Source of the DNA: Gramella sp. MT6
Lineage (GTDB): Bacteria > Bacteroidota > Bacteroidia > Flavobacteriales > Flavobacteriaceae
Length of the DNA stretch: 64,000 nt
NCBI RefSeq assembly: GCF_019357415.1
Contig: NZ_CP048410.1
Coordinates: 2,389,001-2,453,000, forward strand
Direction of reading: 5' to 3'
Shown: one piece after another, positions 18,202-48,493 of the stretch
Numbering within the stretch: position 1 is the stretch's first letter
Layout of the letters: each line of letters begins with the position of its first letter
Made by a program: the position numbers and the translations under genes
Notes under the pieces: generated by a model
The model's input: only the letters and a program-made list of their open reading frames with translations
Told to the model about the DNA's origin: nothing
The model's database searches: none

Positions 18202-20163
18202 ATGAAAAATTTCAAATTTCAACAATTCCTAATTGCATTTCTGGCAGTACTGGTATTTTCCTGTAGCAAGGATGATAAGGTATCTCCAGATGATTTGATC
18301 AGTGAAGATGTGGCCGTAGTTCATTTAGGACCTATTCTTAATCAATTTAACAATCAGCAGACAAGGCAGTCATTAGACGGAATTCCTGATTGTAGCGAAG
18401 AGGCTCCAGGTTTTGCACAGATCTCGCTTACTTATGGAGATGATGATACTCCGGTTGAGGTAGTGGTCGAAATTCTGGAAGACGAGAATGGCCTTTTTAC
18501 AGCTTATGATGATGCACTGGAAATACCAATTCCAGGTGGTTCCAATACAGTTTCAGTAACCTTGAATGATTTTCTTGTTTGGACCAATGTAGATGATGCT
18601 CCTGGAGAGGTTATTTGGGCGGCACCAAAAACTGGTAGTGATTATGCAGCTTTTGTAGATAATCCCCTCCCATTTAGCTGGGATTTGAGAGCAGGATCTA
18701 AAACCTATACCAATGTAGATGTTCTTTGCTTTGACGATAGGGTAGTGAATTTATATGGATATCAATTCTTCGATATAACTCCTGAAGTTATTTATGAGCT
18801 ATGTTTCTTTGCGAATTATTGTTCAGATGCTGGAAGACATTATACTGCTAATTATAGTCTTGATATTTATTATGGTATTTCGGCTAATGGAACACCGCTA
18901 TATTCTGGTGAAGTTCCTATGATCGGAGAAGATGGTGAATTTTATGCCGATCCTCTGTGTTTGGCGATCCCCGGACCTCAAAATGATGAAGCAGATGATG
19001 TTCCTTACCTATATTATGAGGCTACATTATTAGATTGGGAAGATAATTATGGTAGTGCAAACGGTCAAACCATTAGTGGAACCTGGAGCTGGAATGATAT
19101 CGAAGGGCTGTTAAATGAAGATGGAGAAACCTCTGAATATTTCCACGCTTTCATTAATTGTGGTGATGAGGGTAACGGCCCGGTAGACTCAGATCAAGAT
19201 GGAATTCCAGATATCGAAGATAACTGTCCAAATGTTCCTAATCCAGATCAGGCTGATGCAGATATGAACGGAGTTGGCGACGCTTGTGAACCAGGGAATG
19301 ATGATGATGGCGATGGTGTGCCAAATGATATTGATGAATGTCCAGATACAGATCCAGGTGTAGAAGTAGACGAAGTAGGATGTGAGAGTATTCAGGTGCC
19401 TGGAAGGGATATAGTCGTGCTAAATGATGCTAACATATTCGATCAGAATTCTATGCAGGACCCAAATAATGTGAGATTTGTACAAAACCTGGTCAATTTT
19501 ACAACCACAGGTAGTAGAAATGATGGTAGAACATTTATGTTCGATACCGGAAAAAATACCTCTTGTCCACAATGTCCGGATATATGGGCAACTATGCGAA
19601 GTGTGATCACTAATGAAGGTTTTACTATTTCAGATATTTCCTCTACTAATGGGTCTTTGACAAATATTCCGACAGATGTTAAGATCATTATGCTGGTGAT
19701 GCCAACTTATCAATATACAATTGAGGAGATCAATACATTAAAATCCTTCGCGGCAGAAGGTGGTAGGATAATTTTTATGGGAGAACATGAACTCTATTAC
19801 GGAGCAGGTATTGCTATCGAAAATCAGTTTCTAATCAATATGGGTGCTGTACTGCGAAATACCGGAGGATATGTAGACTGTCTGGATTTTAATGGAGCAC
19901 CTCCAAAAGTGATCCCGTCTGAATCTATAAGGAATCACCCGATCATGGAAGGTATTGATGGTTTATCTATTGCCTGTGCATCTATTATAGAACCGGGTGA
20001 AGGTGACTTCGCTTTATTTTATGATACTACCAATACTAATGTACTGGGAGGTGTTGCCAAAATAGATACCGAGCCTATCAGAAGTTCAGTTCCAGTAGAG
20101 AAATCTGCGCAATATGATATTATTGAAAATAGTCGAATTAAAGCGACCTTGACAGGTAACTAA
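18202..20163 (+). CDS. Modular surface lipoprotein, solitary paralog (P1)
   Basis: A 653-residue lipoprotein (Cys21; mature CSKDD start, suited to surface export). Residues about 30-325 are the array's shared domain (ECS, VxCFDDR, ELCFFANYC, DPLC and FINC cysteines). About 329-395 are thrombospondin type 3-like calcium repeats (DSDQDGIPDIEDNCP and similar). About 400-653 look like a class I glutamine-amidotransferase/DUF4350-like alpha/beta domain (IIMLVMPTYQYTIEEINTL, GGRIIFMGEHE), without an obvious catalytic Cys-His-Glu triad. It is followed by a terminator and the menaquinone genes. Function is unknown; adhesion or a cell-surface structural role is a guess. Its unusual C-terminal module sets it apart from the tandem copies. 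Confidence 0.8.
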   Translation: MKNFKFQQFLIAFLAVLVFSCSKDDKVSPDDLISEDVAVVHLGPILNQFNNQQTRQSLDGIPDCSEEAPGFAQISLTYGDDDTPVEVVVEILEDENGLFTAYDDALEIPIPGGSNTVSVTLNDFLVWTNVDDAPGEVIWAAPKTGSDYAAFVDNPLPFSWDLRAGSKTYTNVDVLCFDDRVVNLYGYQFFDITPEVIYELCFFANYCSDAGRHYTANYSLDIYYGISANGTPLYSGEVPMIGEDGEFYADPLCLAIPGPQNDEADDVPYLYYEATLLDWEDNYGSANGQTISGTWSWNDIEGLLNEDGETSEYFHAFINCGDEGNGPVDSDQDGIPDIEDNCPNVPNPDQADADMNGVGDACEPGNDDDGDGVPNDIDECPDTDPGVEVDEVGCESIQVPGRDIVVLNDANIFDQNSMQDPNNVRFVQNLVNFTTTGSRNDGRTFMFDTGKNTSCPQCPDIWATMRSVITNEGFTISDISSTNGSLTNIPTDVKIIMLVMPTYQYTIEEINTLKSFAAEGGRIIFMGEHELYYGAGIAIENQFLINMGAVLRNTGGYVDCLDFNGAPPKVIPSESIRNHPIMEGIDGLSIACASIIEPGEGDFALFYDTTNTNVLGGVAKIDTEPIRSSVPVEKSAQYDIIENSRIKATLTGN

Positions 20164-37327: not shown

Positions 37328-37692
37328 GGTGGCAAAGTTACTTATTGTAATTATATATAAAAAGCTATTGTCAATCTACTGATGTTAAGGTTGATGTAAT
37401 TTTTTGCCGTAAGCTTTAATATTATTAAAAGAACGGCGGAAATTAGTTGAAGAAATCAAAAGTTGGCCAAGGATTTTAAGTCTTAAAATCAGCCATTAAA
37501 CTTTAATTTAACTTATTGAATGTCAGGATAATATTACTTGTTTTTTTTCACTGTAATGGGGGAAATCACCTATATTTGAATCTCCCACAAACACTTTCCC
37601 AGATCTTTTTCCTATGAATGCCTAGGACATTAATTCATGTCTGTAATGCATGCCCTGTATTGAAAAAATTATTAATTAGTTTTTAATGCCGT
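37328..37692 (+). promoter_or_regulatory. Gap between uvrA and the LuxR-type regulator
   Basis: The 365-base gap carries the uvrA -7 box (37333-37340, minus strand), AT-rich sequence, and near the right end ATGGGGGAAATCACC (37556-37570) with a TATATTTG box at 37571-37578. GGGAAATCACCTAT here (37560-37573) is the exact 14-base sequence seen upstream of lipoprotein P1, and ATGGGGGAAA recurs inverted after the regulator gene. It may be an autoregulatory operator; that is inference. No small gene or RNA is apparent. Confidence 0.5.
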
Positions 37693-37695
37693 TTG

Positions 37696-38706
37696 ATGAT
37701 GGAAAAAAAACAACTACTCATTGTTAGCAGGAATCAGGATTTTGTAAATAAGTTAATTGAGCATCTAAGCGTAAGCTATGAGGTCACTTCAGAGAAATCT
37801 ATACATGTAGCCTATAATATCGCGCTTTCTCTTTTACCCGATATTATTTTCTTTGATAAAGTGTCTTACAATAAAGCTTCAGATTTTCGGAATCTAAAGA
37901 ATTTTAAATCCACCCATTTCCTGACAAAAAGTTTCCTGATGGTTCGTCTCAAAGATAAAGAGAAGGGTGCCTTAACTAAAAGGTATAAATCTATCATAGA
38001 TGAATACATACCCGAAAAGATGAGCGTAGAGCTAATCGCTTCTAACATTCTCAAGAACAATAAGTCGAAAAGTTTTAATTACTGGCATGATTGCTTTATG
38101 GGACTTTTCAATCTTATGACTCAGCCTATCGTTCTATTACAACAGAATAATATTATCGCGATGAACGATTCCTTTAAAAAAACCTTTCGTTTAGAAAATA
38201 CTGATGGTCTAAGACTCACTGATTTCGTGAACGTTGAAAATAAAGCAAAAGTTAAAACCAGCCTTAGAAATTTTGCCAGAGGCAAGCATATGAAGGCGGT
38301 GACTACCACATCTCTCCTTATTAATAATGACAAGCTAAGAAATGCCAAGATCAGTTTCTCCAAACTTAGCCGCAATATCACAGACCAATTTATAATGATG
38401 ATCGATTTTTCTGGAGATGAGCACGCAATGGATGAGAGTATAGGAAGTCACGCAGATCAGGTGGAAAAATGTTTTAAGGAGAATAGTGAGTTGGCAGAAT
38501 TCAGTTTTACTAAACGAGAGAAGGAGATCATCTCCTTATTATGTAAAGGTTATAAAACGAAAGAGATTTCAGATGCTTTATTCATTTCACCTAAAACTAT
38601 AGAAAAGCATAGATCTAATATTATTAAGAGAACTAATTCAGAAACTATTTTGGAGAGTATAATCTACGCAATTAACCATAATTTAGTGGATCTCCCGAAA
38701 TCCTAG
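37696..38706 (+). CDS. Orphan LuxR-type regulator with degenerate receiver
   Basis: A 336-residue regulator. Residues 5-115 resemble a response-regulator receiver: a candidate Asp is present in PDIIFFDKV, but the acidic pair after strand 1 is missing (LLIVSRNQD), so phosphorylation in the normal way is doubtful. A PAS-like middle (about 130-245) begins PIVLLQQNNIIAMNDSFKKTF. The C-terminal LuxR helix-turn-helix is FTKREKEIISLLCKGYKTKE followed by ISPKTIEKHRSNII. The longest frame opens with TTG at 37693; ATG 37696 or 37699 is likelier. No histidine kinase is adjacent. It lies just upstream of the lipoprotein array and may control it. Confidence 0.87.
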   Translation: MMEKKQLLIVSRNQDFVNKLIEHLSVSYEVTSEKSIHVAYNIALSLLPDIIFFDKVSYNKASDFRNLKNFKSTHFLTKSFLMVRLKDKEKGALTKRYKSIIDEYIPEKMSVELIASNILKNNKSKSFNYWHDCFMGLFNLMTQPIVLLQQNNIIAMNDSFKKTFRLENTDGLRLTDFVNVENKAKVKTSLRNFARGKHMKAVTTTSLLINNDKLRNAKISFSKLSRNITDQFIMMIDFSGDEHAMDESIGSHADQVEKCFKENSELAEFSFTKREKEIISLLCKGYKTKEISDALFISPKTIEKHRSNIIKRTNSETILESIIYAINHNLVDLPKS

Positions 38707-39115
38707 ACAAGGTATAATTATCTGTTAAATAGGGGGTTATTTGATTATTATACGGGTTTTCCCCCATGCTTATCACGAAGTTAGTTTCATACATTTACTG
38801 TGATTCTGATAAAAGGTAATAACCTTAAAGCTTTTTGTCTGAAGTTATCCTTACCCCCCAAATCACTACAATTTACTGATCTGTTACACTACTTCCCATG
38901 GGGAAGGTCTGTATGTATATATTTATTAACCATTCTAAATATTATTAACCAATACTGAATAATATGAAAGCGTAAATTACTTAAAACCAAATCTAAAAAT
39001 TTCCCCGAATCGATATTGTTGATCCCTAGACCCTATTTGGCAGATCTGCCAGATACCGGGTGTTGAAAATAGTTTATTAACCATTCTAAATTTTATTAAC
39101 CAAAACTTTATCATT
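38707..39115 (+). promoter_or_regulatory. Gap before the lipoprotein array, with G/C-run motifs and palindromes
   Basis: The 409 bases hold TTTCCCCCAT (38758-38767, the inverse of the motif before the regulator), the inverted repeat CTTCCC-ATG-GGGAAG (38892-38906), an extra AACCATTC leader copy (38923-38952) with a dead start codon, the 14-base perfect palindrome TGGCAGATCTGCCA (39038-39051), and the active leader (39074-39103) of lipoprotein P2. The symmetric sites look like operators. No open frame of useful length is present. Confidence 0.5.
38923..38975 (+). pseudogene. Vestigial leader and start of a lost lipoprotein paralog
   Basis: Bases 38923-38952 match 29 of 30 positions of the leader before P2 (39074-39103). 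At the usual distance comes ATG (38964-38966), but the frame reads ATG AAA GCG TAA and stops at 38975. The following ~100 bases show no signal peptide or paralog sequence. The simplest reading is a remnant of a deleted or aborted gene copy, or a duplicated control element. Confidence 0.55.
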
Positions 39116-40510
39116 ATGAAAAACATTAAAAGTTATCTGGCATTCTGTGCGGTCTTCGTGCTGATACTCGCTGGATGTAGTAAGGATGAACCCGGAACAA
39201 ATGATGGTCCGGCGTCGTCAGAAACCGCTGTACTTCAATTAGGGCCTCTATTGAATAACCCCGCAACCAGGGCGGCGATTAAACAAGAAGAACAGGACAT
39301 TCCTGAATGTTCTGATGAAGCTCCTGGTTTTGCCCAGTTATCCATTATTTACGGACCAGATGATACTCCAAAAGAGAATATCATAGTACCTATTTTAGAG
39401 GATGATCAGGGCTTATTCACAGCTTACTCAGAAGATCTGGAACTTCCAGTCCCTTCAGGTGAAACTACCGTTTCGGTTACTCTCACAGAATTTGTGGTGT
39501 GGACCAATGATGGTGGAAGCCCAGGCGAGGTTATTTGGGTCGCCCCAATAGAAGGTAGCGAATTTGCAGATTTTGTAGACCAGCCTGTTGGTGAAAATTT
39601 CACTTTCGATCTAAGAGCTGGATCTAAAAATTATATAAACGTAGACGTTATATGTTATGATGACCGTGATGTGAATCTATATGGTTATCAATTCTTTACC
39701 ATTACACCAATTCCACTTATCAAGTTCTGTATTTTCGGAAACTACTGTACTCCAGAAGGAAGACATTTTGTAGCCTCTTACAGCGTGAACGTATGGGAAA
39801 GCAATGATGGTGAAAAAGGAGATCCTATTTATACCGGTTTACAGAACATAGTAGAAGGAGAAGGCAGCGAAGCTTATTCAGATCCGTTATGTTTCTTTTT
39901 ACCAGACAGACCTGATGTAGATGATAATGAGGAAGAATACTATGTAGAGATCACATTATTATCTGATACTCCTGGATATGATGGAGATGATATAGTATTT
40001 GCCGAAGGACCAATTTCTGTAACTGAGATCAAAATGTTCTTTGGTGAAGATGGAACTTTAGATTACTACCATTTCCAATATGGTTGTGATGATGGAGTGC
40101 CACCACCATTTGGTCAGCCAGATGCTAAGAGATATAAAGCTTGTATCAAATATCTTGATGATGAAGATGAAGTAGCAGGATTTGCATATCTGTCATTAGA
40201 TGGAACTGTATTGCAAGCCGTAACTTCTTTATTCGGGCTTAAAGTAGGTGAAATGCATCCGCAACACATTCATGAGAACGCTTCTTGTGGAGATTATGGT
40301 CCGGTAGCCGTGGCTCTGGATTATAACGAAGGAGGATTCCCTGTAGCTCAGCTATTCAATGGAGTATCTTTCCTTAATTATGCCGAAACCATTCCTGGTT
40401 TCTTCTTACAGGATCTGGAAGATAGGACCGTTGTAGTTCATGGTAAGGATGTAAATGGAGAATACGCACCGGGCGAACCAGTAGCCTGTGGTGAATTCGA
40501 GGAATACTAA
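39116..40510 (+). CDS. Modular surface lipoprotein, array member P2 (CHRD/SOD-like C-terminus)
   Basis: A 464-residue lipoprotein (Cys21 in LILAGCSKDE; surface-export-like CSKDE). Residues about 30-330 are the shared domain: ECSDEAPGFAQL, PVPSGETTVSVTLTEFVVWT, LRAGSKNYINVDVICYDDRD, LIKFCIFGNYC and DPLCFF. From about 338 the sequence changes to a beta-rich domain with EMHPQHIHENASC and RTVVVHGKD, resembling the CHRD or Cu/Zn-SOD-like fold, where paired His residues could bind metal. I am unsure of that identification. It is first in the tandem array and has its own leader and terminator. Confidence 0.8.
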   Translation: MKNIKSYLAFCAVFVLILAGCSKDEPGTNDGPASSETAVLQLGPLLNNPATRAAIKQEEQDIPECSDEAPGFAQLSIIYGPDDTPKENIIVPILEDDQGLFTAYSEDLELPVPSGETTVSVTLTEFVVWTNDGGSPGEVIWVAPIEGSEFADFVDQPVGENFTFDLRAGSKNYINVDVICYDDRDVNLYGYQFFTITPIPLIKFCIFGNYCTPEGRHFVASYSVNVWESNDGEKGDPIYTGLQNIVEGEGSEAYSDPLCFFLPDRPDVDDNEEEYYVEITLLSDTPGYDGDDIVFAEGPISVTEIKMFFGEDGTLDYYHFQYGCDDGVPPPFGQPDAKRYKACIKYLDDEDEVAGFAYLSLDGTVLQAVTSLFGLKVGEMHPQHIHENASCGDYGPVAVALDYNEGGFPVAQLFNGVSFLNYAETIPGFFLQDLEDRTVVVHGKDVNGEYAPGEPVACGEFEEY

Positions 40511-40520
40511 GAAAAAAACA

Positions 40521-40556
40521 CAAATCCCGGCCCTTTTCAAGGGTTCGGGATTTTAA
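40521..40556 (+). terminator. Terminator after P2
   Basis: AAATCCCG pairs with CGGGATTTT around an inner CCC-TTTTCAA-GGG hairpin. It ends just before the leader of P3. Confidence 0.75.
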
Positions 40557-40587
40557 ATATTAATTAACCATTCGTAAATATTTTAAT

Positions 40588-42654
40588 ATGAGAACAATCA
40601 AAAATTACATGGCATACCTCGCCATTTTTCTTCTACTGTTTTCTTCCTGTACCAAGGATGAAACAGTTCCGGGAAACGGAGAGGTTTCCGATGATGTAGC
40701 TAGCTTATATCTTGGGCCAGTTTTAGAAAATTTGGCAAATCAAAGCCGCCAACAGGAGCAAGATGTTCCTGAATGCTCAACCGATGATCCAGCTTATGCA
40801 CAGATCAGATTAACTTATGGAGAATCTAACACTCCAGTTGAGGTTGTAGTAGATATTTTACAGGATGATCAGGGACTTTTTACTGCATACGATGATGCAT
40901 TGGAAATTCCGATTCCTTCAGGTGAAACTACTGTTTCTGTAACCTTAACAGATTTCGTAGTATGGAATGATGTAGATGGAGCTCCCGGAGTACCAATTTG
41001 GGTAGCACCAAAAGAAGGAAGTGAGTATGCGCAATTTGTATCAGATCCACTTTCCAATACATTTACTTTAAGAGCAGGTTCTAAGAATTATGTAAATGTT
41101 GATGTGATTTGTTATGATGATAGGGATGTAAATCTTTATGGATATTTATTCTTTGATATTAATCCAATTCCTCTTTATGAATTCTGTGTTTTTGCAAACT
41201 TCTGTATATCTGAAGGTGGTAGAGATTATGTAGCTAATTATAGTTTCGACCTTTATGCGTATTCAGGAGAAGAAGCAGAAGATAATCCGGTAACCGATGA
41301 GTCGCTTTACACTTCTATTTACATGGATAAAATGCCTGTAACAGGTTTAGACGGAGAAACATATTATGCAGATCCATTATGTCTACCTATTCCGGCAGGT
41401 GATTCTGAGAATCCAGATGCTCCATATTTATATTATGAGATTACTCTGGAAGACTGGGATGGATACTATGGAGAAGCACCAGATGTAACTCAGTCGGGTT
41501 ATTTATCATGGAATCAAGTTCAAGCTTTATTAGATGAAGATGGAGATGACAGTACTGTAGATTATATGCATTTCTTCCTGAATTGTCCAGGTGGAGGAGA
41601 TCCAACCTGTGAAATAGACACAGACCAGGATGGTGTTCCAGATTGCGATGATATCTGTCCGGGATTTGATGATACCATAGATACTGATGAAGATGGTGTG
41701 CCAGACGGCTGTGATGAATGTGCAGAAGGAGATGATAATATAGATACAGACGAAGATGGTTATGCAGATGCGTGTGACAATTGTCCTCAGGCTTCAAACC
41801 AGGACCAGGCAGATAGCGATGGTGATGGAGTAGGTGATGCCTGTGATGAATGTGTTGATGAATTTGGAGAGCCAGACTTCTTTGGATGTCCAAATGATCC
41901 ATGTATTGATCAACCAGATCCTGACGGAGATGGAGTGAGAGGTATTTGCGATAACTGTCCAGATGTTGCTAATGCAGACCAGGCTGATTCTGATGAAGAT
42001 GGCGTTGGAGATGCATGTGACACGTGTCCAGACTACGATGATACTGCAGATGAAGATGGAGATGGAGTGCCTGATGGCTGTGATGTATGTCCAGGTTTTG
42101 ATGATAATGCCGACGTAGATGCCGATGGAGTGCCAGATGGTTGTGATGTTTGTGAAGACGGAGACGACACGGTAGATACAGATGGAGACGGAATTCCTGA
42201 TGACTGTGAAAATCCTGACGGAGAAGGGGCATGTGAAACCGCCTTTATGTTTGGAGACACTCCTATCAACACCTTTAATAATGTAAACAGATGGGGATGG
42301 GCAGAATTATTTGATGATGCCGATGGTACTTCTCAAACCTTTAAGATTTGGGCAGGTGCAGGACAAAATGATACTTCTAAAGGAACTCACGTTGGAGATG
42401 CAACGGTAACCTTAAATGGTGATGGAGACGTAGAACTGGATATAGATATTTTCAGTGGCTACTCATTTGATGAGCTACATGTTAATCTATCTGAGGATCA
42501 ACCTTCAGGAAATACAGCTAAGGCTCCAGGACAATACAATAGAAATGGAGAAGTAAGTGCTGATGTAACAGAATACACATTTGATTTCAATAATACAGAT
42601 GGAGATTTCTGGATCATAGTACATGCTGTTACCTGTGGTATAGAAGAAGATTAA
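40588..42654 (+). CDS. Modular surface lipoprotein, array member P3 (long TSP3 repeat region)
   Basis: A 688-residue lipoprotein (FSSC, Cys21, then TKDE). The shared domain covers about 30-338. About 340-545 is a long thrombospondin type 3-like array of DxDxDGxxDxxD and Cys-containing loops (for example DEDGVPDGCDECAEGDD), which should bind many calcium ions and form a stiff stalk. The C-terminal 546-688 domain contains NRWGWAELFDDADGTSQTFK and GAGQNDTSKGTHVGDATVTL, a module that seems to recur in secreted proteins of this phylum but has no known role. The leader core AACCATTC is at 40566-40573. Confidence 0.82.
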   Translation: MRTIKNYMAYLAIFLLLFSSCTKDETVPGNGEVSDDVASLYLGPVLENLANQSRQQEQDVPECSTDDPAYAQIRLTYGESNTPVEVVVDILQDDQGLFTAYDDALEIPIPSGETTVSVTLTDFVVWNDVDGAPGVPIWVAPKEGSEYAQFVSDPLSNTFTLRAGSKNYVNVDVICYDDRDVNLYGYLFFDINPIPLYEFCVFANFCISEGGRDYVANYSFDLYAYSGEEAEDNPVTDESLYTSIYMDKMPVTGLDGETYYADPLCLPIPAGDSENPDAPYLYYEITLEDWDGYYGEAPDVTQSGYLSWNQVQALLDEDGDDSTVDYMHFFLNCPGGGDPTCEIDTDQDGVPDCDDICPGFDDTIDTDEDGVPDGCDECAEGDDNIDTDEDGYADACDNCPQASNQDQADSDGDGVGDACDECVDEFGEPDFFGCPNDPCIDQPDPDGDGVRGICDNCPDVANADQADSDEDGVGDACDTCPDYDDTADEDGDGVPDGCDVCPGFDDNADVDADGVPDGCDVCEDGDDTVDTDGDGIPDDCENPDGEGACETAFMFGDTPINTFNNVNRWGWAELFDDADGTSQTFKIWAGAGQNDTSKGTHVGDATVTLNGDGDVELDIDIFSGYSFDELHVNLSEDQPSGNTAKAPGQYNRNGEVSADVTEYTFDFNNTDGDFWIIVHAVTCGIEED

Positions 42655-42665
42655 TTATAAATAAT

Positions 42666-42692
42666 AACCGGCTAGTTTTCCAGCCGGTTTTA
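42666..42692 (+). terminator. Terminator after P3
   Basis: AACCGGCT, loop AGTTTTCC, AGCCGGTT, then TTAA; the stem is strong and the T-run short. Confidence 0.7.
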
Positions 42693-42757
42693 ACTCTTAT
42701 ATCTTAAAAACAGAGATATATAATAACCATTCTAAATATTAACTAAAACTTGAAAAA

Positions 42758-43780
42758 ATGAAAACATTTAAATTTTATTTGGCGATAGTCGCCGTGTTCT
42801 CTTTGCTCCTTACTTCTTGTAGTAAAGATGAGGTTGGGCCTGAAGACTCAATATCAGAAAATGTAGCAAGTCTGAGTCTAGGACCTGTATTACAATCCAT
42901 GGATTTAAATAGACAACAGATTACACCAGATGATACCCCTGAATGTTCAGATCTTCCACCTGCCTTTGCTCAAATTAGGTTGGTGTATGGGGATGATGAC
43001 ACTGAGGTAATTACCATAGTAAGCATTCTATCTGATGATCAGGGACTATTTACCGAATATAGTGATGATCTGGAAATACCAATTCCAAGCGGAGAAACAT
43101 CAGTATCAGTTACTTTAACAGATTTTGTTGTTTGGAGTGATAATGGCGGAGCACCTGGAGAAGTGATCTGGGTAGCACCAAAAGATGATAGTGAATTCGA
43201 TATGTTCGTTGATGACCCTCTTGAAAATACTTTTTCACTTAGAGCGGGATCTAAAAATTATGTAAATGTAGATGTGATTTGTTTCGATGATCGTGAAGTA
43301 AATCTATATGGATACCAATTCTTTGATATAACTCCAATCCCACTTTATGAGTTCTGTATTTTCGCGAACTACTGTACAGACGAAGGTAGACACTATACTG
43401 CAGATTATACCTTCTCTTTATATGAATATGATGCAGAAGCAGAAGATGGAAAAGGTGAGATGATCTATTCAGACTTATCTCCTAATACAGGAATGTCTGA
43501 TGGTACATTCTGGGCAGATCCATTATGTGTTGCTATTCCTGGACCAGGTGATGCAGCAAGTGATGAACCTTATTTAGTATTTGAAGCTACTCTTGTAGAC
43601 TGGAATTATACTGCAGACGATGATGATGAAATGGTGATTACACAGGAACTTACCTGGGATACCGTAGAATCTCTATTGAATAGAGATGGAGATGATGAAA
43701 CTACTAACTACTGGCATATTTTCTTCAATTGTGATGAAGAAGATGGTCCTAGTGGTGATGCAGCAGCTGTTCCACTATAG
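42758..43780 (+). CDS. Modular surface lipoprotein, array member P4 (shared domain only)
   Basis: A 340-residue lipoprotein (LTSC, Cys21, CSKDE) that consists almost only of the shared domain and so defines its limits: from about residue 30 to the last paired cysteine in IFFNCDEEDG (about 328), followed by a 12-residue tail. All six conserved domain cysteines are present: ECSD, VICFDD, EFCIF, ANYC, DPLC and FFNC. Its leader contains AACCATTCTAAATATT (42725-42740). No adhesive or enzymatic motif is recognised. Possibly the basal or minimal form of the family. Confidence 0.8.
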   Translation: MKTFKFYLAIVAVFSLLLTSCSKDEVGPEDSISENVASLSLGPVLQSMDLNRQQITPDDTPECSDLPPAFAQIRLVYGDDDTEVITIVSILSDDQGLFTEYSDDLEIPIPSGETSVSVTLTDFVVWSDNGGAPGEVIWVAPKDDSEFDMFVDDPLENTFSLRAGSKNYVNVDVICFDDREVNLYGYQFFDITPIPLYEFCIFANYCTDEGRHYTADYTFSLYEYDAEAEDGKGEMIYSDLSPNTGMSDGTFWADPLCVAIPGPGDAASDEPYLVFEATLVDWNYTADDDDEMVITQELTWDTVESLLNRDGDDETTNYWHIFFNCDEEDGPSGDAAAVPL

Positions 43781-43790
43781 AAATTTATTA

Positions 43791-43824
43791 AATCTAACCC
43801 GGTGATATCTCCGGGTTAGATTCT
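43791..43824 (+). terminator. Terminator after P4
   Basis: TCTAACCCGG (43793-43802) pairs perfectly with CCGGGTTAGA (43811-43820), followed by TTCTTT. Confidence 0.8.
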
Positions 43825-43862
43825 TTAATAATGTATTGCACAATTAATCCAAAACTAATATT

Positions 43863-45683
43863 ATGAGATTATTAAAAAATTATATGGCATTTTTTGCCCT
43901 CATTGCTTTATTGTTTTCTTCTTGTTCTAAAGATGAAACAGTAAACGTTGATGGAGATGTGGCAGATAATGCAGCAAGTATTTATTTTGGGCCAGTTCTA
44001 GCAGATCTTGGAAATCAATTTTCAAGACAACAGGAACAAGACATTCCGGAATGTTCAACCGACGATCCGGCTTATGCCCAAATTAAATTAACTTATGGGG
44101 AAGACGATACTCCCGTAGAAGTGGTTGTAGAAATATTACAGGATGATCAGGGACTTTTTACTGCATATGACGATGCACTTGAAATTCCAATCCCTTCTGG
44201 AGAAACTACAGTTTCTGTAACCTTAACAGATTTTGTAGTGTGGAATGATGTTGATGGTGCACCAGGTATGCCAATCTGGGTAGCTCCAAAAGAGGGTAGT
44301 GAATACGCTCAATTTGTATCAGATCCACTTTCTAATACATTTAATTTAAGAGCTGGGTCAAAGAATTATGTCAATGTAGATGTGATTTGTTTTGATGACC
44401 GTGATGTGAACCTATATGGATATCAATTCTTCGATATCAATCCTGTTCCGCTTTATGAATTCTGCGTATTTGCCAACTATTGTACAGATGCTGGTAGACA
44501 TTACACTGCAGATTATACCTTCGCAATTTACGAGTACGATGCCGAGGCAGAGGATGGTAAAGGTGAAATGATCTACGAAGGATTATCTCCAGAAACCGGA
44601 AATGACGATGGTACTTATTGGGCAGATCCACTTTGTGTGGTAATTCCTGGACCAGGCGATGTAGCTTCAGATCAACCTTACCTGGTATTTGAAGCAACCT
44701 TATCAGATTGGGATGGATATTATACCGCAGAGGAAGATGATGAGTCCGTAATTACAGAAACACTTTCATGGGATATGATCCAGATGTTGTTTGACGAGGA
44801 TGGAAGCGATGAAACTACAGAATACTGGCACATTTTCTTTAACTGTGCGTCAGATGATGGTCCTGTATGCGATATAAATGATCCTGAGGCAGATTGTGAT
44901 AATGACGGAATTCCGAATGGAGAGGACAACTGTCCACAAACTTCGAACGAAGATCAGGCTGATTTTGATGAAGACGGTTTAGGAGATGTATGTGATCCGG
45001 ATATTGATAATGACGGTGTTCCAAATGATGAAGATGATTGTGACATGCAAGTTCCAGATGTAGATGAAGATGGAGATGGATGTGAAGATATAGATCCTGG
45101 ATGTGATCCTGAAGATGCTGCAGCAGATTGTGATAATGATGGTATTCCTAATGGAGAAGACAATTGTCCGGCTATTTCAAATAGCGATCAGGCCGACTTT
45201 GATGAAGACGGTATGGGTGACGCATGTGATCCTGATATAGATAACGATGGAGTTCCTAATGCTGAGGATGATTGTGATTTTGAAGTTCCTGTTGTTGATG
45301 AAGACGGAGATGGTTGCGAGGATGAGGCTGGGAGTGATTGTGAGTGGACCATAACAGATCCTGGAACAAATTGCTTTAGAGCTACTTTAAATGGTGAAGG
45401 AGATTCATTTGTTGAAATTACTCTCGATACCGGTGTTCCACTATTTGAAGAAGGTGAAATTGTTGCTGCCGGAACATTTGGAATTACTTTGACCGGTAGT
45501 GGTCTAGAGTATAATTTTGATACTGGTACGGCTACTGTTCCTCAATATAATATTCAGGTAACAGATTCATCTGGTGGCGCTATAGCATGCTCTGACCAGG
45601 ATGATGACAATAATATTGTGGAAGGATCATTCACTTATCCTATCTACGTAAGAGTTGCGGCTAACATTTGTGAGCCTAATTAA
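43863..45683 (+). CDS. Modular surface lipoprotein, array member P5 (mosaic, duplicated TSP3 block)
   Basis: A 606-residue lipoprotein (FSSC, Cys21, CSKDE). The shared domain spans about 30-335, but its two halves have different affinities: residues 1 to about 185 are nearly identical to P3, while about 200-335 (YDAEAEDGKGEMIY onward) match P4. About 340-487 are two copies of a 75-residue TSP3-type calcium-binding block. The C-terminal 490-606 domain is beta-rich with no recognised family. The leader differs from its sisters, with only AATTAATCC before the ATG. It ends the array. Confidence 0.82.
   Translation: MRLLKNYMAFFALIALLFSSCSKDETVNVDGDVADNAASIYFGPVLADLGNQFSRQQEQDIPECSTDDPAYAQIKLTYGEDDTPVEVVVEILQDDQGLFTAYDDALEIPIPSGETTVSVTLTDFVVWNDVDGAPGMPIWVAPKEGSEYAQFVSDPLSNTFNLRAGSKNYVNVDVICFDDRDVNLYGYQFFDINPVPLYEFCVFANYCTDAGRHYTADYTFAIYEYDAEAEDGKGEMIYEGLSPETGNDDGTYWADPLCVVIPGPGDVASDQPYLVFEATLSDWDGYYTAEEDDESVITETLSWDMIQMLFDEDGSDETTEYWHIFFNCASDDGPVCDINDPEADCDNDGIPNGEDNCPQTSNEDQADFDEDGLGDVCDPDIDNDGVPNDEDDCDMQVPDVDEDGDGCEDIDPGCDPEDAAADCDNDGIPNGEDNCPAISNSDQADFDEDGMGDACDPDIDNDGVPNAEDDCDFEVPVVDEDGDGCEDEAGSDCEWTITDPGTNCFRATLNGEGDSFVEITLDTGVPLFEEGEIVAAGTFGITLTGSGLEYNFDTGTATVPQYNIQVTDSSGGAIACSDQDDDNNIVEGSFTYPIYVRVAANICEPN
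44880..45329 (+). repeat. Two in-frame 225-base TSP3-encoding repeats in P5
   Basis: Unit 1 begins at 44880 (residue 340) and unit 2 at 45105 (residue 415). Both encode DCDNDGIPNGEDNCP, a DQADFDEDG loop, DPDIDNDGVPN and VDEDGDGCED. Protein identity is very high while many third codon positions differ, so the duplication is not fresh. Confidence 0.85.
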
Positions 45684-45770
45684 ATTAAAGAAATTAACCC
45701 GACTGAATTATTTGACCGGGGGGTGACTAATTTTGCGGGTTAAATACTCATTCCTTTGTGGAATGTGTGG

Positions 45771-45802
45771 AGCTGTCCGGATCTTTCCGGACAGCTTTTT
45801 TA
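45771..45802 (+). terminator. Terminator after P5
   Basis: AGCTGTCCGG (45771-45780), loop ATCTTT, CCGGACAGCT (45787-45796), then a T-run; a perfect 10-base stem. Confidence 0.9.
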
Positions 45803-46123
45803 TTTCAATAAAAAGATTGATTATTTCTAAAAAGTTATATGTTTAAATCTGTCAGTGAATAATTTAAGTTCATTTTAAACCATGTTTTTTTAATCTAAGT
45901 ATTGTGAAATCTAATGGTTTCAGTCGTTCTTTTAATTTTAAAATAAGTCGATTCTCAATTACCCAAATCTTGAGTTGAACTTAATTTTTAGAATTGTGTA
46001 AGAATTTGATTGTTAAAATTTTAGCAGAATATTTAGTTAATTTTTTTGGAATAGACTTTGTAATTCACTGACCGAATTAGAAAAACTAAAACAATTTTTA
46101 AACGCAAAACAAAAGACCTACTT
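45803..46123. other. AT-rich gap before the first astacin gene
   Basis: About 320 bases of AT-rich sequence with no open frame of note, no strong hairpin and no TTG-N17-23-TAnnTTTG promoter; a near match (TAGACTTTG, one base too long) lies about 65 bases before the gene. I see nothing else in it. Confidence 0.5.
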
Positions 46124-47173
46124 ATGAGAAAATTGAAATTATTCTTCTGGCTACCTGTTCTATCTATAATGGCATGTAGCGATGACCCCGTATCAGAAGA
46201 AGTTCAAGTAGAAAATGAAAACCAAATCGAAACCTCAAATTCAAAAGATCCTCTAGTAGAGATAGCATACCCAGATTCAAAAGGTGCTGTTACTGATATT
46301 TATTATACTGGTGTGAAAATGCCTGTAGAAAATATTGACGGGAAGTATATTTACCAGGGTGATATCATTATTCCAAGAGGGAAAGCCTCTAAAAGTCCCG
46401 TAAAGCTGGTATATGAGAAGGGTGAAAAAGCACCTGAAAACAAAAGTGTAGGACGTACTTCTGCATATTGGACAGACAACACTGTATACTACGAAATTGA
46501 CGGAAGTTTACCAGACAAAGACCGTGTTTATGACGCAATTAGTCACTGGGAAGCGAATACAAACCTGGAATTTGTAAAACGTTCTGGGCAGTCAAATTAT
46601 ATTTATTTCACTCCAGGTTCTGGTTGTTCCTCTTACGTGGGAATGATAGGTGGTAAGCAAAATATCACCCTTGCTTCAGCTTGTTCAACTGGTAATACAA
46701 TACATGAAATTGGACATGCTGTTGGTTTATGGCACGAACAAAGTCGTGCAGACAGAGATAACCACGTAACAATTCACTGGAATAATATTCAGAGTGGAAG
46801 AGATTACAATTTTGAAACTTACGTGGAAGCAGGTTATGATGGTAAAGAATTCACTACAAGCCTTGACTTTGGATCTATAATGATGTACAGTCCTTATTCT
46901 TTTTCAAGTAATGGAGAACCTACCATAACTAAAAAAGATGGTTCATTATACAGTGCTCAAAGAAGTTCTTTATCTAGTGGAGATATCAAGGGAGCAAATT
47001 CCATGTATTCTGCTGATGGTGGTGGATCTGGTGGTGAATATGTTAACGGTGAATATTACACAATCGAGGGTCTTAGAGTTCTAAGAAACTGGGATAGATG
47101 GTACTATTATTCCTCTAGAGGTTGGCGAGAAGTCGAATTGAGAGATGGAACTTGGTATTATGTTTTTGAATAA
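46124..47173 (+). CDS. Astacin-family (M12A) metalloprotease lipoprotein, copy 1
   Basis: A 349-residue zinc protease with lipobox IMAC (Cys18) and an acidic CSDDP mature start. The catalytic domain (about residues 100-300) has the astacin zinc motif HEIGHAVGLWHEQSRADRD with His194 first, and the Met-turn SIMMYSPYSF. An N-terminal segment of about 80 residues may act as a propeptide. The last ~45 residues (GEYYTIEGLRVLRNWDRWYY) form a small aromatic module shared with copy 2. A surface-anchored protease acting on proteins or peptides outside the cell is likely. It neighbours the lipoprotein array and has its own terminator. Confidence 0.92.
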   Translation: MRKLKLFFWLPVLSIMACSDDPVSEEVQVENENQIETSNSKDPLVEIAYPDSKGAVTDIYYTGVKMPVENIDGKYIYQGDIIIPRGKASKSPVKLVYEKGEKAPENKSVGRTSAYWTDNTVYYEIDGSLPDKDRVYDAISHWEANTNLEFVKRSGQSNYIYFTPGSGCSSYVGMIGGKQNITLASACSTGNTIHEIGHAVGLWHEQSRADRDNHVTIHWNNIQSGRDYNFETYVEAGYDGKEFTTSLDFGSIMMYSPYSFSSNGEPTITKKDGSLYSAQRSSLSSGDIKGANSMYSADGGGSGGEYVNGEYYTIEGLRVLRNWDRWYYYSSRGWREVELRDGTWYYVFE

Positions 47174-47407: not shown

Positions 47408-48493
47408 ATGAAAAATCTAAAGTACCTTTTAGTAATTCCATTTCTTATTTTAATTGCCTGCAGCGAAGATGAAGTTTCTGAATCTATCAATTCAGAGAAT
47501 GAAATTCAATCGTATTTCATCGACGATCTAACTGAAATCGCATTTCCAGGTAAGGAAGGAGTGGTTTCAGATATTTTCTTCGCCGGTAAAAAACTTGCAG
47601 TAGAAGAGATCAATGGTAAATATATTTATCAAGGCGATATTTTTCTTCCGGAAAATAATATATCCAAAAGTCCGGTGAAATTGGTTTTGGATGCTGATGA
47701 AGATATTAATGCAATTAATAAAAGTGTAGGTCGCACAAAGTTCTTCTGGCCAGAGAATACCGTTTTTTATGAGATAGACCCAGCTTTACCTAATCAGCAA
47801 CGTGTTGCAGATGCTATTAATCATTGGGAATCGAATACTGCTGTTAAATTCGTGAAACGAACTTCAGAATCTAACTATGTCTATTTTACTCCTGGTGGTG
47901 GATGCTCTTCTTATGTTGGAATGATTGGGGGAAGGCAGCCTATAACTTTGGCAGATGGTTGTTCAACTGGAAATACAATACATGAGATTGGGCATGCAGT
48001 AGGCTTATGGCATGAGCAGAGTAGAGCAGATCGTGACCAAACTATTTCAGTTCACTTCGATAATATTATTTCTGGACGTGAGCATAATTTCTATACTTAT
48101 GAAGAAGCAGGATGGGATGGAGCAGAATATACTGCGGGACTGGATCTTGGATCTATAATGATGTATAGTCCTTATTCCTTTTCAGCAAACGGTCAACCTA
48201 CGATTACTAAAAAAGATGGTTCTCTTTATTCTGCGCAAAGAGCAGGTCTATCTTCTGGTGATATTGAAGGAATTAGTGTGTTGTATCCGGAAGCTGTAAC
48301 TGAGCCGGAGCCAACAGAGCCAGAGCCAACAGAGCCAGAGCCGACTAATCCAGAACCAGAATATATTAATGGAGAGTATTATGTGATTGAAGGCGTGATG
48401 GTGCTAAGAAAAGATGATACCTGGTGGGTAGAAAAAGGAAAAAACCTCAAAGAAGTAGAGTTGATTGATGGTAGATGGAGACTGGTGAAATAA
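47408..48493 (+). CDS. Astacin-family (M12A) metalloprotease lipoprotein, copy 2
   Basis: A 361-residue paralog of the preceding protease: lipobox LIAC (Cys18), CSEDE start, zinc motif HEIGHAVGLWHEQSRADRD with His192 first, Met-turn SIMMYSPYSF and the same C-terminal aromatic module (GEYYVIEGVMVLRKDDTWW). It differs by a proline/glutamate linker (repeated TEPEP) between the catalytic domain and that module, probably a flexible spacer. Sequence identity over the catalytic domain is high, so the pair arose by tandem duplication. It ends in a terminator that also borders the opposite-strand ACP phosphodiesterase-like gene. Confidence 0.92.
   Translation: MKNLKYLLVIPFLILIACSEDEVSESINSENEIQSYFIDDLTEIAFPGKEGVVSDIFFAGKKLAVEEINGKYIYQGDIFLPENNISKSPVKLVLDADEDINAINKSVGRTKFFWPENTVFYEIDPALPNQQRVADAINHWESNTAVKFVKRTSESNYVYFTPGGGCSSYVGMIGGRQPITLADGCSTGNTIHEIGHAVGLWHEQSRADRDQTISVHFDNIISGREHNFYTYEEAGWDGAEYTAGLDLGSIMMYSPYSFSANGQPTITKKDGSLYSAQRAGLSSGDIEGISVLYPEAVTEPEPTEPEPTEPEPTNPEPEYINGEYYVIEGVMVLRKDDTWWVEKGKNLKEVELIDGRWRLVK

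Follow-up and report, generated by a model that had tools for sequence, protein, structure and literature searches.

We analyzed a 64,000-nucleotide stretch of the Gramella sp. MT6 genome (NZ_CP048410.1, positions 2,389,001 to 2,453,000; here called the window), part of a single 3.77-Mb contig, which carries an array of lipoprotein genes whose products join one shared N-terminal anchor domain to different C-terminal heads. Open reading frames (ORFs) for five such proteins, P1 to P5, and for a LuxR-type regulator were found where an initial annotation of this DNA had placed them. Four of the genes are adjacent on the forward strand. P2 (39116..40510) comprises an anchor to about 40105 and a head with a modeled Cu/Zn superoxide dismutase (SOD) fold at about 40106-40507. 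P3 (40588..42654) has an anchor to about 41595, a TSP3 spacer at about 41596-42252, and an RWGW head at about 42253-42651. P4 (42758..43780) is the anchor domain alone, and P5 (43863..45683) combines a mosaic anchor to about 44864 with a TSP3 spacer at about 44865-45353 and a head at about 45354-45680. The dispersed member P1, also on the forward strand (18202..20163), has an anchor to about 19182, then a TSP3 spacer and a weakly GATase/ABC_transp_aux-like head. A regulator gene precedes the array, and a structured RNA element and two astacin genes follow it; the astacins, the RNA, and recombination inside the anchor were all missing from the initial annotation.

The shared part of the five window proteins extends from the signal to about residue 330 and includes a domain of ~310 residues, with Cys21 and six further conserved cysteines. 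Among 115 relatives, Cys21, Cys63, and Cys200 were invariant and Cys175, Cys206, and Cys257 were kept at 99%; the sixth conserved cysteine (mature C305) was invariant in 76 rows. Searched against its own genome, P4 matched seven places (E 5e-234 to 4e-47): itself, the four other window members, and two outside the window. The initial annotation had recognized no named family for this domain, and curated Pfam, NCBIfam, and PDB-sequence searches likewise gave none. P4 had no Pfam match, its NCBIfam match was confined to the N terminus, and PDB sequence searches returned nothing convincing (best profile E 0.086). DUF4458 gave weak matches, with E ≤ 1 in 7 of the 37 members scanned (best E 9e-4) and no match for P4 itself. 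Viral relatives were also rejected: of 173 pattern matches in viral contigs, none was a relative. Literature searches yielded no title on the anchor family and none joining Christiangramia with lipoprotein, which is weak evidence given that most subscription papers were outside reach; a text search of the G. flava multi-omics paper (PMC5306329) returned none of the terms looked for.

An AlphaFold2 model of mature P4 (76 sequences; mean predicted local distance difference test, pLDDT, 85.3; predicted template modeling score, pTM, 0.54) consisted mostly of beta strands, in two stretches with a low-confidence segment between them. In a Foldseek search with this model, BT_0210 of Bacteroides (4ecn, E 1e-5) ranked first, followed by a Bacillus TIE protein, with further matches to the Bacteroides ovatus putative adhesin 3pay (E 5e-4) and to Gram-positive pilins; E values of ≤0.001 were reached in 5 of 908 rows, and template modeling (TM) scores were about 0.2. 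These matches point to a stalk-like beta domain in the model, not to family membership. The anchor resembles DUF4458/BT_0210-type N-terminal domains of Bacteroides surface proteins through the 4ecn match and the weak DUF4458 matches, whereas the anchor match appears sub-threshold, the TM-scores are 0.23 and 0.10, and the six-cysteine, two-part domain is not covered.

In all five window lipoproteins, Cys21 is followed by S/T-K-D-D/E, the acidic start that the initial annotation had noted as surface-export-like. This fits C-X-K-(D/E)2-X, the export-signal optimum measured in Capnocytophaga according to the accessible part of PMC5080379. Among 211 relatives, K-(D/E)2 followed the first Cys in 144 by a simple rule that can pick a Cys inside the signal. 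Because of this match, the array proteins are predicted to be surface exposed, and the anchor domain probably lies on the cell surface. With the Bacteroidota surface lipoproteins of that study the array proteins share a signal peptidase II type start and the C-X-K-(D/E)2 motif; they differ in that the accessible text names no family with the array anchor and that the signal was measured in another genus.

The modules added to the anchor proved diverse. P1, P3, and P5 contain TSP_3 repeats above the Pfam cutoff, as initially annotated, and their spacers, which lack Lys and Arg, are 35 to 39% Asp plus Glu. TSP3-type repeats are, as a family, calcium binding. A 153-residue His-rich ORF on the opposite strand (41441-41902, minus strand) lies inside the repeat-rich part of P3 and is probably a shadow of the Asp-rich repeats. 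In a model of P2 (mean pLDDT 74.0, with the anchor part at low confidence), the head scored about 80 to 95 in most blocks. The top PDB matches of this head in Foldseek were Cu/Zn SODs (best 7b4p, E 2e-5), with TM-scores by target of 0.53 to 0.72 against full-length single SOD chains among the 50 rows listed. By sequence, Sod_Cu matched 9 of 24 heads of this type and CHRD 1 of 24, all below the cutoff; the initial annotation had labeled this head CHRD/SOD-like. QHIH, one further His, and two Cys were kept in 24 of 24 rows. The only invariant histidines were H50, H52, and H108, and the full copper and zinc ligand set was not present in these 24 rows. The likeness to Cu/Zn SODs (7b4p and others) lies in the fold, the QHIH pair, and the two invariant Cys, whereas identity is about 20%, the zinc-site residues are not conserved, and the head is anchored on a lipoprotein. 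Metal binding by the P2-type head is plausible; we make no claim of dismutase activity.

The RWGW head of P3, the commonest head, had no convincing match, its best profile match being to designed immunoglobulin (Ig)-type proteins (E 0.002); RWGW and later heads are Ig-like at best. For the P1 head, described initially as amidotransferase-like, ABC_transp_aux/GIFT matches below threshold lend that label weak support. Heads of relatives include DUF7133, FAA-hydrolase, and PPC domains above Pfam cutoffs, GSDH and DUF4350 below threshold, and Lcl_C, also below threshold, in one distant member. Two Salinimicrobium loci carry haloperoxidase-type fusions: in one (L147, 8001-10136), the anchor is joined to a vanadium haloperoxidase head (PDB 4cit, E 2e-33, residues 333-707 of 712), and in the other (L152, 8001-10196), the head was assigned by tail similarity. 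Single-linkage clustering on the last 110 residues sorted 191 tails into 28 head clusters, which are not counts of folds, since at least two types of head are chained together in cluster H0.

We compared in detail seven Christiangramia arrays with a common four-gene order. At position 1, heads were 52 to 91% identical across all 21 pairs. Position-2 heads fell into two groups of three species, with 77 to 92% identity within groups and 31 to 44% between groups and for C. echinicola. At position 4, the last 115 residues were most alike in the window genome and C. gaetbulicola (92% identity), followed by C. echinicola with C. aestuarii (75%) and C. lutea with C. oceanisediminis (66%); the other 18 pairs ranged from 21 to 33%.

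The clearest case of head replacement in these sequences is the sister-species pair C. oceanisediminis and C. bathymodioli. Here the regulator (92%), the astacin (87%), and all four anchors (88 to 92%; position 4, 91%) are closely similar, as are the heads at positions 1 and 2 (91%), yet the position-4 heads share 33% identity. At the DNA level, the position-4 anchor and spacer are 78 to 88% identical and the head 51 to 64%. Just past the stop codon, identity rises to 99% in a 100-nucleotide block, falls to 57 to 80% in the next three blocks, and is about 90% beyond.

Anchors have recombined as well. The N-terminal part of the P5 anchor (residues 22-175) is 86% identical to P3 and 66% to P4, whereas its C-terminal part (residues 200-328) is 46% identical to P3 and 75% to P4; the 98 informative sites split more sharply than any of 10,000 permutations (P ≤ 1e-4). 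The same mosaic was found in C. gaetbulicola (86/46 and 68/77) and, more weakly, in C. lutea (85/51 and 81/75); other species differ. In a quick LG+G4 tree of 201 of the 211 anchors (ten rows, short or very divergent, were excluded), neighboring genes with different heads clustered together in G022 (support 100), G006/G008 (100), L140 (100), and L117 (88), and head clusters H1, H0, H4, and H19 recurred on distant anchors. This pattern can reflect anchor homogenization as well as head movement; both would be recombination between anchor and head.

P4 matched in 26 of 59 genomes searched, its own included: 23 of the 24 genomes of its genus, a single Salinimicrobium genome, and two genomes from another family, whose copies are distant. 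The sole genome of the genus lacking a match is 73% complete. In a draw of 199 Flavobacteriaceae genomes, one per genus, 34 matched, 3 of them full length and strong and 31 weak and N-terminal. A scan of named genomes, covering the best 80 of 115 matches in 65 loci (163 distinct proteins), placed relatives in Christiangramia/Gramella, Salegentibacter, Gillisia, and Salinimicrobium, plus one short contig labeled Methanohalobium. Defining an array as at least two adjacent members gave 46 arrays. uvrA lies upstream of 34, the PAS-LuxR regulator directly upstream of 35 (≤900 nucleotides), in keeping with its immediate upstream position in the initial annotation, and an astacin lipoprotein directly downstream of 33 (≤1,200 nucleotides); these distance cutoffs miss some cases, the L125 regulator and the L140 astacin lying slightly further off. 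By genus, regulator and astacin accompanied 15 and 15 of 17 arrays in Christiangramia, 12 and 12 of 19 in Salegentibacter, 3 and 2 of 4 in Gillisia, 5 and 4 of 5 in Salinimicrobium, and neither the one array on the Methanohalobium-labeled contig. The two Christiangramia exceptions are P1-type pairs and the seven in Salegentibacter are second pairs downstream. Each of the seven closely compared arrays opens with the SOD-like head gene; this gene takes second or third place in arrays L129, L140, L127, and L151 of Gillisia and Salinimicrobium and is absent from some two-gene Christiangramia arrays. The arrays are ordered, not freely variable, with the regulator, astacin, SOD-like head gene, and 3′ RNA largely conserved; their most variable part is the heads of the later genes.

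The regulator gene (37693..38706, forward strand) encodes a GerE domain above the Pfam cutoff (E 2e-14) and PAS_8 and PAS_9 matches below it. Full-length orthologues (E < 1e-90) occurred in exactly the 24 of 59 genomes with close family members, one per array genome and none elsewhere; the next match had an E value of 5e-14. Between regulator and P2 lies an operator-like palindrome, TATACGGGTTTTCCCCCATG (38749..38768), and a weaker copy with 2 mismatches, not general in relatives, lies upstream of the regulator (37555..37570, minus strand). By a simple pattern, and with seventeen presumed duplicate loci excluded, a GGGG-N4-CCCC-type palindrome was present in all 24 distinct Christiangramia loci and in 10 of the 21 remaining loci. 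Three places in the window's own genome came within one mismatch of the window-based pattern, and two of these lie on either side of the regulator; a backward control gave one. The palindrome is similar to the PAS-LuxR operator CTVGGGAWWTCCCBAG as given in the accessible part of PMC9774167. The likeness to Streptomyces PAS-LuxR regulators such as PimM extends to the PAS plus LuxR helix-turn-helix arrangement and the GGG-N4-CCC-core palindrome beside targets described there, whereas the window regulator comes from another phylum, its PAS match is sub-threshold, the outer bases of the palindrome differ, and the operator is putative. The P2 leader contains, at 38923-38975, a second copy of the pre-start motif TTATTAACCATTCTAAA and then a tiny ORF (ATG AAA NNN stop), a mini-ORF found in 14 of 18 leaders. 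A genome-wide regulon for TTATTAACCATTCTAAA was rejected: it recurred within one mismatch at three places, two in the P2 leader and one (L153) in the gap between a putative M3-type peptidase gene and a putative purE-type gene. Nor was an invertible promoter apparent, the inverted repeats listed being imperfect and mostly thousands of bases apart.

Directly after the last stop codon of the array lies an RNA element on the forward strand (45684..45809; terminator at 45769-45798). In an alignment of 17 Christiangramia genomes, the core ACCGGGGGGTGACTAAT of this ~115-nucleotide element is identical in all 17, and the folding energy of the window copy is -50.7 kcal/mol (z -7.25). A 15-base segment of the core is present as a single copy in each of 22 of 24 genomes of the genus and is missing from all 35 others; the two genus genomes without it are 73% and 67% complete. 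A covariance model built from the 17 Christiangramia loci found the RNA at the same place in 12 Salegentibacter loci (53.9 to 90.5 bits). Unrelated places and antisense reach 28 to 30 bits with this model; against that noise, matches were found in Gillisia right past the stop in L110 and L118 (34 to 36 bits) and about 290 nucleotides off in L129 (33 bits), as well as in Salinimicrobium L151 (34 bits), while scores near the array ends of L127, L130, L134, L140, and L144 were at noise level (≤27.8 bits). The RNA was found in all 34 loci given, 22 Christiangramia and 12 Salegentibacter, all chosen for having an array and 17 of them used to build the model. In these loci it starts -10 to +11 nucleotides from the stop and ends 243 to 329 nucleotides before the astacin start. 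In an alignment of the 34 loci fitted to the structure, 97.7% of 903 cells pair, double changes occur in 14 of 27 pairs, and the 61 double-change cells compare with a shuffled mean of 11 (0 of 500 shuffles); an unfitted 17-row alignment gave double changes in 8 of 27 pairs. Rfam 15 had no match in the window, its best sub-threshold rows scoring 22 to 23 bits against cutoffs of 42 to 60.

On these comparative grounds, the 3′ element is a structured RNA with good support, tied to one locus and assigned to no Rfam family. Since it ends in an intrinsic terminator, its role is most likely that of a 3′ untranslated region (3′-UTR) element or a small RNA, and it could possibly act as a switch for the astacin. 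We do not claim that the RNA core pairs with the P2 leader: in only 5 of 18 genomes did the best duplex rank with the 5 lowest of 100 shuffles, and the main pairing site is degenerate in the window's own genome. An integron-type site at the array end was considered, and a comparison by eye with the attC core gave no fit. Beyond the RNA lie two predicted lipoproteins of the astacin (M12A) metallopeptidase family on the forward strand (46124..47173, Astacin E 1e-47; 47408..48493, Astacin E 2e-45), the second of which is present at many, not all, of the loci compared.

Taking these observations together, we favor, at a probability of roughly 0.55, a clade-specific locus for surface display of lipid-anchored, exchangeable heads. 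Comparison among relatives brought out modular proteins with a shared anchor, head replacement at fixed positions, mosaic anchors, and linkage to regulator, RNA, and astacin. In such a locus, each array gene would yield a lipoprotein lipidated at Cys21, and the C-X-K-(D/E)2 start would probably direct it to the outer face of the outer membrane. The two-part beta domain with six cysteines would serve as a stem, and the Asp-rich TSP3-type spacer would keep the C-terminal head away from the membrane. Heads would be exchangeable cassettes, swapped while anchor and position stay, presumably by homologous recombination through anchor or spacer DNA. The dedicated PAS-LuxR-type regulator would drive the array, probably from the GGGG-N4-CCCC palindrome; the conserved RNA, supported by covariation, would end it as a 3′-UTR element or small RNA; and the neighboring astacin lipoprotein, judged from its linkage, would most likely trim or shed the displayed proteins. 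The display system with one anchor and varied heads proposed in the initial annotation is partly supported, by fixed-position head exchange, the export-signal match, and the linked regulator, with the qualifications that surface display is a prediction and that the arrays are ordered.

Several points weigh against this reading. Most of the low-identity position-4 heads score somewhat above 30 shuffles, and part of the variation there may be fast divergence of remote relatives instead of replacement. By the simple rule, 67 of the 211 proteins have no K-(D/E)2, and the export signal was measured in Capnocytophaga and is different in F. johnsoniae (PMC5080379, accessible part). P4-type proteins are headless, and the heads share no target that could account for their combination. 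If the display reading holds, a dedicated, conserved locus in marine Flavobacteriaceae would attach SOD-like, haloperoxidase, hydrolase, and Ig-like modules to what is probably one surface stem, with natural head replacement seen between sister species. The 3′ RNA, being tied to one locus, could be probed by single deletions, and the anchor may serve as a display tag in Bacteroidota.

One further proposal is that head exchange at fixed loci docks on upstream anchor/TSP3 DNA and on the downstream RNA gene, and that the RNA, as a new family, also couples array expression to a head-processing astacin. We regard this as unlikely, and its odds are slightly lowered because the 99% block past the stop is the RNA itself and identity drops again behind it. 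It is likewise improbable that these are ordinary paralogous lipoproteins with no common job, their heads scattered by duplication and promiscuous TSP3 repeats and their conserved order historical. Repeats do favor recombination, and dispersed members carry other heads with no adjoining regulator or astacin; such a history fits poorly with one regulator orthologue per array genome, a single 3′ RNA core in 22 of 24 genomes, and a nearly constant spacing of RNA and astacin in all 34 loci given.

More doubtful still is a type V-pilus-like filament, in which the anchor would be a fimbrillin-type subunit, P4 the stalk, and headed proteins the tips or side subunits, with proteolysis in the N-terminal linker freeing a polymerization groove. 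The lipoprotein has an early strand and then a low-confidence linker (pLDDT 57, residues 31-40 of the P4 model), members consisting of the domain alone are seen again in other genera, the arrays have a linked protease gene, and Foldseek matches include the Bacteroidales adhesin/fimbrial proteins 3pay (E 5e-4), 3r4r, 4k4k, and 3liu (E 5e-4 to 6e-3). Suggestive at most is the linker Lys/Arg in 197 of 197 proteins counted (14 of the 211 were left out), with [KR]Q in 138. Against a filament stand the TM-scores of about 0.2, the lack of a Pfam fimbrillin match, an NCBIfam Mfa1 model that touches only the signal region (residues 2-38), and heads at the C terminus, where we would expect the donor strand; astacins, moreover, are not usually Lys/Arg cutters. 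Array proteins resemble type V pilins (FimA/Mfa1; PMC11316588, accessible part) as probable surface lipoproteins with a putative beta-sandwich fold and possible N-terminal processing, but differ in having no sequence membership, low TM-scores, C-terminal heads, and no fimbrial gene cluster in view. Just as doubtful is a surface redox or stress-defense set in which the anchor is no more than a tether and the targets of the SOD-like, haloperoxidase-type, and dehydrogenase-type heads are reactive oxygen, metals, or halides: the P2-type fold with its invariant residues and the haloperoxidase and DUF7133/sugar-dehydrogenase-type heads of relatives would suit it, whereas three invariant His, fewer than an active Cu/Zn enzyme has as ligands, make activity doubtful, the commonest head (RWGW) and later heads are Ig-like at best, and FAA-hydrolase and PPC heads do not fit.

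Outlying members of the family were seen as well. At a dispersed locus in three species (L070 2248, L071 2230, L072 2796), the anchor stands alone (307 to 312 residues) where relatives have a tail of ~225 residues, which looks like head loss. Distant tandem copies with 22 to 24% identity to P4, and no full-length regulator orthologue, occur in two genomes of another family of the order (L056 and L057, genomes G036 and G051). Proteins of ~600 residues in many other Flavobacteriaceae genera (e.g., G100:C4:11007-11369) weakly match the first ~120 profile positions only; what they share may be the first half-domain or no more than the signal region. The array genes on the 3.7-kb contig titled Methanohalobium sp., an archaeal name (L108), are Salegentibacter-like, and the label is probably a binning error.

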